Assembly (NCBI RefSeq): GCF_000702065.1 | Contig: NZ_JNKN01000001.1 | Coordinates: 1-64,000 of the forward strand | Length of the DNA: 64,000 nucleotides | DNA from: Kandleria vitulina DSM 20405 | Lineage (GTDB): Bacteria; Bacillota_I; Bacilli_A; Erysipelotrichales; Coprobacillaceae | Reading direction: 5' to 3' | Part shown: positions 7,349 through 11,611 of the stretch, piece by piece | How positions within the stretch are numbered: the stretch's first letter is position 1 | Layout of the letters: every line of letters starts with the position of its first letter | Made by a program: the position numbers and the translations under genes | Notes under the pieces: model-generated | What the model saw: only the letters and a program-made list of their open reading frames with translations | Told to the model about the DNA's origin: nothing | Databases searched by the model: none

Positions 7349-8317
7349 GTGAAACACTATGATATCATAGGTAACTTTCTACTGCCTGAAAGCGTAAAGA
7401 AAGCTAACCTTTCCTATAAGAAAGGCATTATTTCCTATAATAAGCTAAAAGAAGCACAGGACAATGCAATCAGAAACCTGATTATCAAACAGAAAGAATA
7501 TGAGTTCCCTTTTATTTATGATGGGCATTATCGAAGAGAAAACGTAACACTTGATTTTATTATTCCCTTTCTCCATGTCAACTATAATGAAGAAGGACTT
7601 TTTCTTAAAGGACCATTAACCTTTAAATCACATCCTCTTCTTGAAGAATTCAGATTCATTCACTCATTTGAAGATGAGAACAGTCATGCTAGAATCAGTA
7701 TTCCTTCTCCTTCTACTTTTATTCATATCTTTAACAATAAAGAAAACATACTAAAATATTATGACTCCCTTGATGATTTCAATAATGATGTCATTTCTAT
7801 TTATCGTTCATTTATTAAAGAAATATATCATGTGGGATGCCGTTATCTTCTTCTAGAAGAAGAAGCATTGGACTATTTAGAAGAAACTGTTCATATCAAC
7901 AATGAGGTTATTGATAATCAGCCTCAAGATTTAATTTTTTCTACTCATATCCAAAAGAATCAGCTTGATTATGATAGCTACAATAAAATAGCTGCTTACC
8001 TGTTTACTCATGAACATGTTCACTCCTATTATATAGAATGTGATCATAAATCATCCTACCCGTTAGCGTTCTTAAGTCATTTACCTAACGATAAAGATGT
8101 AATCTTAAGACTGCTGGTAGCCAATACACCATTTATGGAAAATGAAGAAGAAATCATCGATCGTGTCATTGAAGCTTCACTGTATGTGCCATTGTCTCAT
8201 CTCTCTATTTCTACAAGGGGAGAATTTGATACATCAAGCCTGACTCTTTCTGAGTTTCAGCAATGGGAAAAGATACAGAAACTAAAAGATATCAGCGAGA
8301 AAATATGGCATACATAA
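7349..8317 (+). CDS. MetE C-terminal-domain-like (YxjG/YxjH-type) protein lacking Zn cysteines
   Basis: A 322-aa relative of the stand-alone cobalamin-independent methionine synthase barrel. Its beginning (HYDIIGNFLLPESVKKA) and its end (IDRVIEASLYVPLSHLSIS, then WEKIQKLKDI) match the family. The zinc site is degraded: the family THxCRGN reads THIQKN (His200 kept, Cys replaced by Gln202), and the LSPQCGF region near 285-293 has no Cys. The substrate-side DGE reads DGH (His60). Family members are usually about 370 aa. It probably does not perform normal methyl transfer to a thiol. The start is GTG, with AAGGAGGG 7 nt upstream. It is plus-strand and flanked by two minus-strand genes. Confidence 0.8.
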   Translation: MKHYDIIGNFLLPESVKKANLSYKKGIISYNKLKEAQDNAIRNLIIKQKEYEFPFIYDGHYRRENVTLDFIIPFLHVNYNEEGLFLKGPLTFKSHPLLEEFRFIHSFEDENSHARISIPSPSTFIHIFNNKENILKYYDSLDDFNNDVISIYRSFIKEIYHVGCRYLLLEEEALDYLEETVHINNEVIDNQPQDLIFSTHIQKNQLDYDSYNKIAAYLFTHEHVHSYYIECDHKSSYPLAFLSHLPNDKDVILRLLVANTPFMENEEEIIDRVIEASLYVPLSHLSISTRGEFDTSSLTLSEFQQWEKIQKLKDISEKIWHT

Positions 8318-8342
8318 AAACAGAGCTAAGTGCTCTGTTTTT
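8316..8342. terminator. Bidirectional terminator between MetE-like and EIIB-ROK genes
   Basis: AAAAACAGAGC (8316-8326) and GCTCTGTTTTT (8332-8342) form an 11-bp stem with loop TAAGT. It serves both strands; the minus-strand stop codon (8326-8328) begins at the stem-loop junction. Confidence 0.85.
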
Positions 8343-9717
8343 CTTGTGCAATACATTTCAGCATTTCTCCAAAGAGAAGATATTCTTCAATATTATCAAG
8401 TTTCTTTATTTTTGGAATATAGTGTCTTGGTACATAATCTTCAAGTTTTTTCACTACATCTTCTACATTCACAACATTTGAACAATAGAAAGCTAATACC
8501 TCTGGAGAGAAAGTCATAATAGAAAGAAGGAAATGCTTTGCGACAATATCCAAACATCCTTCTTCACTTAGAATCTGTTCACGAGGATCTTTCTCATAAA
8601 TAAATGGCAGCTGATGAAGATCTCCTGATACATCCATATGACCGTTCATGATCTTTCCTTCATTGATGTTTCCCATACCTGCTACATAGGAAGATTTAGG
8701 CAGATACAAAAATGACAATGATTTATAGTCCTGCAGTTCATATAAAGTCATTGCGATCGCTTCGCTAGCTTTATCTAAATGAATATTCATATACGGATAT
8801 TTTTCTTTAAAATGAGTAATAATATCAACATTAAACAATTGATCTTTTTCTAAAGTCAGATGTCCTTGATCTATTATTCCCGGTGTGGCAATGCCCACCT
8901 TTTTTAAGTGCGGATAGGAAACAAGCATAAAGTCGATAAGATCATCTAGATCATCAATACAGAGTTTCTGTTTAATAATTTGTCCATGTTCCAATACACT
9001 TGAATGTTTGTAGACACGATAGAGGATCCTTGTACTTCTTGTCGTCTTAAAAATACCGATGGATAAAATATCCTCATCATAATCTACAGACAATTGTAAT
9101 GCTTTAGGGATATCTACTACTTCCTGAGCAAGCAGTGAATCACCAACAAGCTTCAGTGCGCCTCTGACATCATATTTTGCAAATACCTGAGAAGGAACAG
9201 TGACCACGGGAATCTGATGGAAGATGGACTGTACTTTAGGCTGCTGATATCCAATCTGGGGTGCAAGAAGAATAATATCACAGTTTCTTCCTACGGCTGT
9301 CAATTCATTATAAGGGACAGCTTCAAAATGATAATCCATACACAATGTAGTCGCTGCCTGATTTAATTCCTGTGCAAAAAAGCCCGTTGTCAGTCCACTT
9401 GTACAAGATAAAAGAACCTGAACTATTTTTGTATTTTCAGCTGTAGCCATAGCATCAATAAGCTCATTAAACAAAGAAGAGGCATGTCCTAAGGTCTGCA
9501 TCTGAAAATGAAGATAAAAATCAATATGATCATTTTTCTTATTGGTTACAGACAATTCAATGACATTCCCCTGAAAAACCACTTTACCGATAGCTCCTAC
9601 ACCATCAAGAACAATTGTCTTTTCATCAACTTCTTTTATATTATACTGTTCACTCTTTTGACCTAGTATCCAAGATCTATAGACTTTAACATAGATTTCT
9701 CTTAAAAAATCGTCCAT
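8326..9717 (-). CDS. PTS EIIB (lactose/cellobiose type) fused to a degenerate ROK-kinase domain
   Basis: An unusual fusion, 463 aa from the chosen start. About 90 N-terminal residues are unassigned. Next is an EIIB-like domain at about 97-180 with VQVLLSCTSGLTT, where the Cys (about 105) is the expected phospho-acceptor, and LLAPQIGYQ as in cellobiose EIIB. From about 215 to the end it resembles a ROK sugar kinase (KKVGIATPGIIDQG; NVDIITHF; MGNINEGKIMNGHMDVSGDLH). The kinase looks dead: the nucleotide motif DIGGT is absent, the catalytic NDAN is replaced by KASE, and the Zn cysteines are missing. I use the ATG at 9715-9717 because GAGGTGA lies 8 nt upstream. A sugar-sensing regulator is a guess. 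No PTS partner is adjacent. Confidence 0.75.
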   Translation of the reverse strand: MDDFLREIYVKVYRSWILGQKSEQYNIKEVDEKTIVLDGVGAIGKVVFQGNVIELSVTNKKNDHIDFYLHFQMQTLGHASSLFNELIDAMATAENTKIVQVLLSCTSGLTTGFFAQELNQAATTLCMDYHFEAVPYNELTAVGRNCDIILLAPQIGYQQPKVQSIFHQIPVVTVPSQVFAKYDVRGALKLVGDSLLAQEVVDIPKALQLSVDYDEDILSIGIFKTTRSTRILYRVYKHSSVLEHGQIIKQKLCIDDLDDLIDFMLVSYPHLKKVGIATPGIIDQGHLTLEKDQLFNVDIITHFKEKYPYMNIHLDKASEAIAMTLYELQDYKSLSFLYLPKSSYVAGMGNINEGKIMNGHMDVSGDLHQLPFIYEKDPREQILSEEGCLDIVAKHFLLSIMTFSPEVLAFYCSNVVNVEDVVKKLEDYVPRHYIPKIKKLDNIEEYLLFGEMLKCIAQEKQST

Positions 9718-9774
9718 AAAACGTTTCACCTCATCCTTATTTTACCATTTTTTAATAGTTTTGGTAGCCTTTTC

Positions 9775-9800
9775 AAAAAAGCAGTGACATTAGTCACTGC
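9775..9800 (-). terminator. Terminator of the MarR-ABC operon
   Basis: GCAGTGAC (9781-9788) pairs with GTCACTGC (9793-9800); six Ts follow on the minus strand (9775-9780). The upstream ABC gene stops at 9800-9802. Confidence 0.85.
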
Positions 9801-11611
9801 TAGGCATTTTCAAACTGTGATTCGTATAATTCACTATAGAATCCTTTTTGTTTTAATAATGTATCATGATTACCAATTTCTACGATATCGCCATCTTTCA
9901 TGACAATGATCGTATTGGCATCTCTAATTGTAGAAAGACGATGTGCAATAATAAACGATGTTCTTCCTTCCATCAGCTTATCCATACCATTTTGAATAAG
10001 TAATTCTGTTCTCGTATCAACGGATGAGGTTGCTTCATCAAGAATCAGAATCTTAGGATTTTTAATAAAAGCTCTAGCAATTGTCAGCAATTGTTTTTGT
10101 CCAGCTGAAATATTGCTTGATTCTTCATTAATTACAGTATCCATTCCTTCAGGCAATGTCTGAATAAAATGGTGAGCATAAGCATTCTGGCAGGCTTCTT
10201 CTATTTCATCGTCACTTGCATCCAATGCTCCATACTTAAGATTGTCCTTGATTGTTCCATTAAAGAGCCATGTATCCTGAAGGACCATTCCAAATAGACT
10301 ACGAAGATCGCTTCTTTTCAATTTGGTAATATCTACTCCATCTATTAAGATAGAACCTTTATTGAGTTCATAGAATCTCATCAACAGTTTAATAATAGTA
10401 GACTTGCCTGCTCCTGTTGGACCAACGATAGCAACTTTCTGTCCTGCATGTACATGAAGATTGAAATCATTGATGATGATCTTATCTTCATTGTATCCAA
10501 ATTGCACATGATCAAATGTAACTGCTCCATTCATCTTAGCTACATCTTCACTTGAAACTTCAGCTTCTTCAAGATCAAGCTCTTTCTCTTCAAGGAACTC
10601 AAAGACACGTTCACTCGCTGCACCAGCAGACTGTAGAAGATTAAGAACCTGAGCCAGCTGAGAGATAGGCTGATTGAAGTTTCTTACATAAGTCACAAAG
10701 GCCTGAATATCACCGATGGTAATAATCTTTCCCGTAGCAAGATAACCACCTACAATACACACTGCCACATAGCCTAAGTTCCCTACAAATTGAGAGATCG
10801 GCATCATAAGTGAACCAAAGAACTGTGATTTCCACGCTGATTCATACAATGACGCATTGTACGTATTGAATTTATCAATAGCCTCTTCTTCTCCATTAAA
10901 AGCCTTTACGACAAGATGTCCACCATATATTTCTTCAATATGTCCATCTACATCCCCTAACGCAGTTTGCTGCTGAGAAAAGTACTTCTGGGATTTTTTC
11001 ATCAGTAAAGCTATTAATGTTAAAGATAAAGGAAGTATCAACAAGGCAATAAGTGTCATCTGCCATGAGATAGAAAGCATCATAATAAGTATTCCTACCA
11101 CTGTAGTAAAAGAGGTAATCATCTGTGATAAAGACTGATTCAATGATTGCGCAATTGTATCAATATCATTGGTTACACGAGAAAGAATATCCCCACTCGC
11201 ATGTTTATCAAAATAAGATAATGGAAGTCTATTCATCTTTTCAGAAAGATCTTTACGTAAAGAATACGCAACCTCCTGTGAAACACCTGAGACAATCCAA
11301 CCTTGAATATAGCTAAAGAAGGCACTAATAAGATAAAGAACAATCAATATAATAGCAATATGAAGAATATACTTAAAATCAATTCCTCCTGTATTATTGA
11401 CTTTAGCCATTACCCCTTGTGCTAGCTTATCAGTTGCTTTAGCAAGAACCTTTGGTCCTACAATAGAGAAGATTGTGGACCCTACCGCAAAGATAGTAAC
11501 GATAATCAAACGTAAGGCATAAGGACGAACATATTTCAATAGTGAGCCCATTGCCTTTTTTAAATCATTGGCTTTTTCTGTAGGCCCTTGAATTTTTCCT
11601 GGTCTAGGCAT
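9800..11611 (-). CDS. ABC exporter half-transporter (permease-ATPase), consensus Walker B
   Basis: A 603-aa type IV ABC exporter subunit. A six-helix membrane domain at about 30-330 precedes the ATPase: Walker A GPTGAGKST, signature NISAGQKQ, Walker B ILILDEATSSVD with the catalytic Glu, and the H-loop IAHRLS. The signature departs from LSGGQ, as expected when the partner carries the degenerate site. It overlaps the preceding ABC gene by 8 nt, so the two should form a heterodimer. The substrate is unknown; MarR control suggests a toxic compound or drug. Confidence 0.92.
   Translation of the reverse strand: MPRPGKIQGPTEKANDLKKAMGSLLKYVRPYALRLIIVTIFAVGSTIFSIVGPKVLAKATDKLAQGVMAKVNNTGGIDFKYILHIAIILIVLYLISAFFSYIQGWIVSGVSQEVAYSLRKDLSEKMNRLPLSYFDKHASGDILSRVTNDIDTIAQSLNQSLSQMITSFTTVVGILIMMLSISWQMTLIALLILPLSLTLIALLMKKSQKYFSQQQTALGDVDGHIEEIYGGHLVVKAFNGEEEAIDKFNTYNASLYESAWKSQFFGSLMMPISQFVGNLGYVAVCIVGGYLATGKIITIGDIQAFVTYVRNFNQPISQLAQVLNLLQSAGAASERVFEFLEEKELDLEEAEVSSEDVAKMNGAVTFDHVQFGYNEDKIIINDFNLHVHAGQKVAIVGPTGAGKSTIIKLLMRFYELNKGSILIDGVDITKLKRSDLRSLFGMVLQDTWLFNGTIKDNLKYGALDASDDEIEEACQNAYAHHFIQTLPEGMDTVINEESSNISAGQKQLLTIARAFIKNPKILILDEATSSVDTRTELLIQNGMDKLMEGRTSFIIAHRLSTIRDANTIIVMKDGDIVEIGNHDTLLKQKGFYSELYESQFENA

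Follow-up and report, generated by a model that had tools for sequence, protein, structure and literature searches.

An EIIB domain fused to a ROK half lacking both ATP loop and DNA-binding domain in Kandleria vitulina: a candidate PTS-linked signalling protein of Erysipelotrichales

The window, a stretch of 64,000 nucleotides from Kandleria vitulina DSM 20405 (contig NZ_JNKN01000001.1, positions 1 to 64,000), carries on its minus strand an intact gene at 8326..9717 that encodes a protein of 463 amino acids, with the stop codon at 8326-8328, the ATG start at 9717 and the coding part at 8329-9717. The mechanically called start, a GTG at 9729, sits within a Shine-Dalgarno-like GAGGTG and the proteins of the family begin with MDEFL; for both reasons the ATG was taken as the start. 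The protein is composed of a 95-residue N-terminal domain, an EIIB domain of the lactose/cellobiose type, a short linker and a ROK half, and its AlphaFold2 model reached a pLDDT of 87 and a pTM of 0.79. An earlier note, made from the DNA letters and their open reading frames, had claimed that EIIB and ROK segments are fused in this single frame; the intact reading frame, the profile searches and the modelled folds all agree with that claim, and no profile in Pfam or NCBIfam covered the whole protein as one known family.

Upstream, an intrinsic-terminator-like hairpin (9780..9801, minus strand) follows a pair of ABC-transporter genes and separates them from the fusion gene, which is therefore probably transcribed alone. 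Orthologues in conserved gene order were found in Sharpea, Eggerthia and a further genome (G015); since the same ABC pair and an amidohydrolase gene also flank the orthologue in Sharpea and G015, the locus is conserved. An open reading frame of 322 amino acids at window positions 7349-8317 (plus strand) lies between the fusion and the amidohydrolase gene that adjoins the fusion in Sharpea, and gave no Pfam match at 0.001. Among the predicted open reading frames in the first 20 kb of the window, no PTS gene was found.

The EIIB domain (residues 96-195; 9133..9432, minus strand) was assigned to the lactose/cellobiose/chitobiose type by Pfam, NCBIfam and PDB searches and by Foldseek. Pfam sees in the protein only PTS_IIB, at residues 101-178 (E = 2e-6, over the gathering score); the NCBIfam models pts-lac (1e-13, 51 bits) and PRK10499 (38 bits) did not reach their cut-offs of 110 (curated) and 157, respectively. 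The PDB sequence search returned EIIB-chitobiose at 2e-9 with the single protein and at 2e-14 with a family profile built from 33 members. The predicted phosphoacceptor, Cys105 in the motif SCTSGLTT (9403..9405, minus strand), stands at the phosphoacceptor position in the first loop of the fold and is conserved in 85 of 85 non-redundant homologues. The cellobiose-type segment with this motif, described in the earlier note, has an EIIB fold around its cysteine in the predicted structure. The E. coli EIIBs for chitobiose/cellobiose (1h9c, 2wy2, 1iib) match the modelled domain within 1.0-1.2 Å (Foldseek) and have the Cys in the same place, at ~27% identity to the fusion; unlike the fusion, they are stand-alone transport components with an EIIA and an EIIC partner. 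As the genome of K. vitulina encodes two lac-type EIIAs, together with five ordinary EIIBs of ~110 amino acids, a possible phosphate donor for Cys105 is available in trans.

The N-terminal domain (residues 1-95; 9433..9717, minus strand) is modelled with a pLDDT of 94 as a helix, five strands and a helix, and its H70-F71 pair is kept in 85/85 non-redundant homologues. The first 90 residues, left as unassigned in the earlier note, thus form a real, conserved and separate domain. Its best Foldseek match in the PDB is the TriTu immunity protein (7zhm_C, E 0.009, probability 1.00), at 9% identity. The Pfam TriTu model matches an unfused paralogue at E 6e-4 and hits 3 of 28 family members tested at E<1; membership in the TriTu immunity proteins was rejected because the score of the paralogue, 20.0 bits, lies under the gathering score of 27. 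With E-values of only 0.009 and 6e-4, the domain is at most TriTu-like in fold.

The ROK half (residues 213-463; 8329..9081, minus strand) of the window copy alone is invisible to Pfam. However, a search of the PDB with the family profile matched N-acetylmannosamine kinase (5nck) at 1.5e-12, among ROK kinases, ROK repressors and EIIB chains, and the model matches both ROK kinases and ROK repressors in Foldseek, with E-values down to 5e-13; the fold of the ROK repressors (NagC/Mlc/XylR) is therefore present. This half is without the DxGGT ATP loop, the CxCGxxGC zinc motif and a helix-turn-helix (HTH). The DxGGT loop for metal and ATP, including its metal-coordinating Asp, is absent from the window protein and from 85/85 homologues, and the zinc motif occurs in no member of the family. 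The missing DIGGT phosphate loop noticed in this one protein is consequently a trait of the whole family, as is the loss of kinase activity, and ATP-dependent ROK kinase chemistry was ruled out. Furthermore, no HTH was detected in the fusions, and the linker between EIIB and ROK measures 24-33 residues in all 43 aligned fusions, which leaves no room for one and excludes a hidden HTH at that place; the absence of a DNA-binding domain, suspected from the letters, was upheld.

Mutagenesis of PsNagK has verified its metal residue D6 and its base D105, and the sugar is contacted there by N104 and E154 (PMC10031466). The equivalent of D6 is missing throughout the family, but those of N104, D105 and E154 are retained as N316 in 84/85, D317 in 71/85 and E366 in 82/85 homologues; at the position of D317 there is an Asn in 11/85 and another residue in 3 more, the window copy being among those 3. 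Judging from the alignment, the family dispensed with ATP but mostly kept its sugar site.

An alignment-based scan of genome contigs, adopted after a single sequence had given no match, uncovered the same three-part domain order at ~80 loci, mostly in Erysipelotrichales and in a few rumen Selenomonas MAGs; the fusion is thus not one odd gene but a widespread family. The 79 loci found in the scan of named genomes belong mostly to Erysipelotrichaceae and their relatives, such as Sharpea, Eggerthia, Massilimicrobiota, Longibaculum and Faecalibacillus. Genomes of relatives matched in 49 of 60 cases, many of them with several full-length copies, some of the weaker matches being plain EIIBs; a search of 392 genomes of the phylum with the N-terminal domain alone matched 19, all in the same taxonomic order. 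Four Selenomonas-type MAGs are among the carriers of the fusion. LpxC is encoded in each of the four, which favours genuine Negativicutes hosts over mis-binned ones, although single contigs may be contaminants. In a Selenomonas-type MAG, three family members stand in tandem (L150:5953-9386; one N-domain-EIIB protein alone and two fusions), close to an open reading frame that by eye resembles a glucoside-type EIIB/EIIC transporter. A search of the open-access full-text literature found no EIIB-ROK fusion, which, given that scope, is weak evidence of novelty.

The genome of K. vitulina itself holds one further fusion (contig C2), one unfused pair (contig C24) and two unfused N-domain-EIIB proteins on contig C10 (C10:7730-8308 and C10:17429-18028). 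The latter two are ~195 amino acids long and keep the Cys, and the invariant His of the fusions is missing from the protein at C10:7730-8308; no PTS genes were recognised among the neighbours read around both.

In a survey of the five nearest genes on either side of each of 80 fusions, no neighbour dominates: the most recurrent cluster, RpiR-type by eye, is present at 17 loci and stands at varying positions. As no neighbour is shared by the majority of relatives and 23 of the 80 fusions are without an operon partner, no target is indicated. A minority, at least five relatives (L089, L100, L104, L109 and L155), have an orphan EIIB gene in the operon-like run of the fusion. One such run (L100:945-3801), a sugar-linked set, comprises the orphan EIIB, RbsD/FucU, maltose acetyltransferase, the fusion and PHP, with no EIIC seen in it, and a similar layout occurs in L048. 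The paralogue on contig C2 lies beside sugar transporters and a rhamnosidase. A BrxF-like P-loop protein (L087:9511-9939) directly follows the fusion on the same strand, and occupies the same position in 9 loci; it scores 80.5 bits against the BREX-3 BrxF model (cut-off 50), and no other BREX-3 genes were recognised by eye around it in L066.

The origin of the fusion is illuminated by five genomes, that of K. vitulina included, in which an N-domain-EIIB protein and a ROK protein are encoded by neighbouring or overlapping genes. The ROK partner of these unfused pairs has an N-terminal HTH-like segment, which exceeds the gathering score of HTH_24 in 2 of 5 and is weaker in the rest. The HTH-ROK protein of L049 gives a continuous alignment that takes in the HTH, both with Lmo0178 and with NagC (residues 3-236), the closest solved and curated relatives of these partners; Lmo0178 and NagC are without an EIIB, and the fused form is without the HTH. 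In a tree of the N-EIIB half the unfused pairs are placed within the fusions, but the support for this is weak (41 and 25). We infer that the fusion lost the HTH, as the canonical HTH-ROK layout is more likely to be ancestral than regained, and the fusion is best read, from its sequence, as a ROK repressor minus its DNA-binding domain, joined to an EIIB. At two further loci (L151:7956-10440 and L154:3057-5541) the gene after the fusion encodes a ROK protein whose ROK half is of the family type and which has no EIIB; the one in L151 has an HTH-like N-terminus by eye, and the two proteins may be a partner pair.

The domain order, the modelled folds, the conservation, the lack of ATP loop and HTH, and the existence of an unfused HTH-ROK counterpart lead us to propose, at roughly even odds, that the fusion is a PTS-linked signalling protein, in which an EIIB is joined to a former repressor of the NagC/Mlc/Lmo0178 type that lacks its HTH and is gated by the phosphorylation of the EIIB. 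Cys105 would receive its phosphate from a lactose-type EIIA~P encoded elsewhere in the genome as long as PTS flux is low, and would lose it again to EIIA during sugar uptake. Depending on whether Cys105 is phosphorylated, the EIIB-ROK unit would take a different shape and thereby change its contacts with a partner; these would be made by the TriTu-like N-terminal domain, by the ROK half or by both, and one conceivable partner is the HTH-bearing ROK protein of contig C24. The fusion would thus probably sense sugar uptake rather than make sugar phosphate, and its output is likely to rely on binding to other proteins and not to DNA. A second signal could be integrated by the ROK half in most relatives, where the sugar-binding residues are kept.

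The copy in the window departs from its relatives in this last respect. It reads KASE (8761..8772, minus strand) in place of the N-D-x-N motif that contains the equivalents of PsNagK N104/D105 (PMC10031466): N316, D317, N319 and E366 are all replaced, with K, A and D at N316, D317 and E366, so that the Asn-Asp pair of sugar contact and catalytic base found in ROK sugar kinases is Lys-Ala here. The change from NDAN to KASE described in the earlier note is indeed present; Lys-Ala at this pair is peculiar to the window copy, most relatives keeping Asn-Asp, whereas the absence of the ATP loop is family-wide. Being a lineage-specific loss of the sugar-contact and base residues, KASE suggests that this ROK half has probably lost sugar binding too. 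The reading of the protein as a sensor rather than an enzyme accordingly stands in part: the fusion, the missing ATP chemistry, the invariant Cys and the NagC-like HTH-bearing sister favour it, but KASE speaks against the sensing of sugar by the window copy, and a sugar sensor would suit the relatives better, with the EIIB as the main sensor in the window copy, where the sugar site would have decayed.

Another interpretation of the same changes is that only the N-domain-EIIB half still works in K. vitulina, the ROK half being a decaying remnant, which we consider possible but rather doubtful. Between the window copy and its nearest relatives the ROK halves are 34-39% identical, against 45-59% among those relatives themselves, while the EIIB half of the window copy is normal; relative to the whole tree its ROK half changed ~2.2 times faster than its N-EIIB half, and this terminal-branch ratio of 2.2 is the highest among tips with an N-EIIB branch >0.1. 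Together with the four replaced residues and with unfused N-domain-EIIB proteins of ~200 amino acids, which are common and also found in this genome, these values fit decay. However, the reading frame is intact, the ROK half is still modelled with confidence and retains most of the conserved glycine and proline positions, and faster change can also mean a new function. For the window copy, moreover, decay of the ROK half can coexist with the proposed signalling role.

It is improbable, in our estimate, that the fusions of the relatives are soluble phosphotransferases, in which EIIB~P would give its phosphate directly to a sugar bound by the ROK half, without ATP and in a cytosolic EIIC role. 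Such a role would account for a family that dispensed with the ATP/metal loop and mostly kept the sugar contacts and base, and the fusion sets a phospho-Cys domain beside the sugar pocket. Nevertheless, the base Asp is replaced in the 14 homologues given above, the unfused form resembles a repressor and not an enzyme, and the window copy could hardly perform the reaction; to our knowledge, no EIIB phosphorylates a sugar without an EIIC. The extended version, a family-wide soluble PTS enzyme replacing both the kinase ATP site and the membrane EIIC, with the window copy derived and non-catalytic, seems very improbable. An ordinary sugar-specific EIIB working with an EIIC in trans, its ROK half being accessory, is likewise improbable: the EIIB fold and Cys are good and PTS EIIC and EIIA are present in the genome, but neither EIIC (among the matches listed) nor EIIA was seen as a regular companion of the fusions, genomes carry several copies, and the extra N-terminal domain with its invariant HF motif is absent from solved transport EIIBs.

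The proposed signalling protein has its closest parallel in Mlc and EIICB-Glc/PtsG of E. coli, where a ROK repressor is controlled by the phosphorylation state of EII(C)B, Mlc being sequestered by dephosphorylated EIICB-Glc (PMC3901232). Weighing against the analogy, two separate proteins act there in trans, the EIIB belongs to the glucose-type class and Mlc has an HTH, whereas the fusion is one chain with a cellobiose-type EIIB and without HTH. If our reading is right, an EIIB and a ROK regulator, which exchange signals as separate proteins in E. coli, have become one polypeptide throughout a gut-bacterial family, whose genomes carry several copies and in which an HTH-bearing unfused form allows comparison. 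The effect of EIIB phosphorylation on a ROK domain could then be tested directly, and the carbohydrate biology of Erysipelotrichales would gain a class of regulators not characterised before. The fusion would also be an example of a ROK protein that abandoned ATP as well as binding to DNA. A precedent for an EIIB-like domain as a regulatory phosphorylation switch is provided by PRD regulators of the MtlR type, in which such domains gate MtlR (PMC3217849); unlike the fusion, these regulators combine an EIIB of the Gat-like class with PRD and DNA-binding domains, and contain no ROK.
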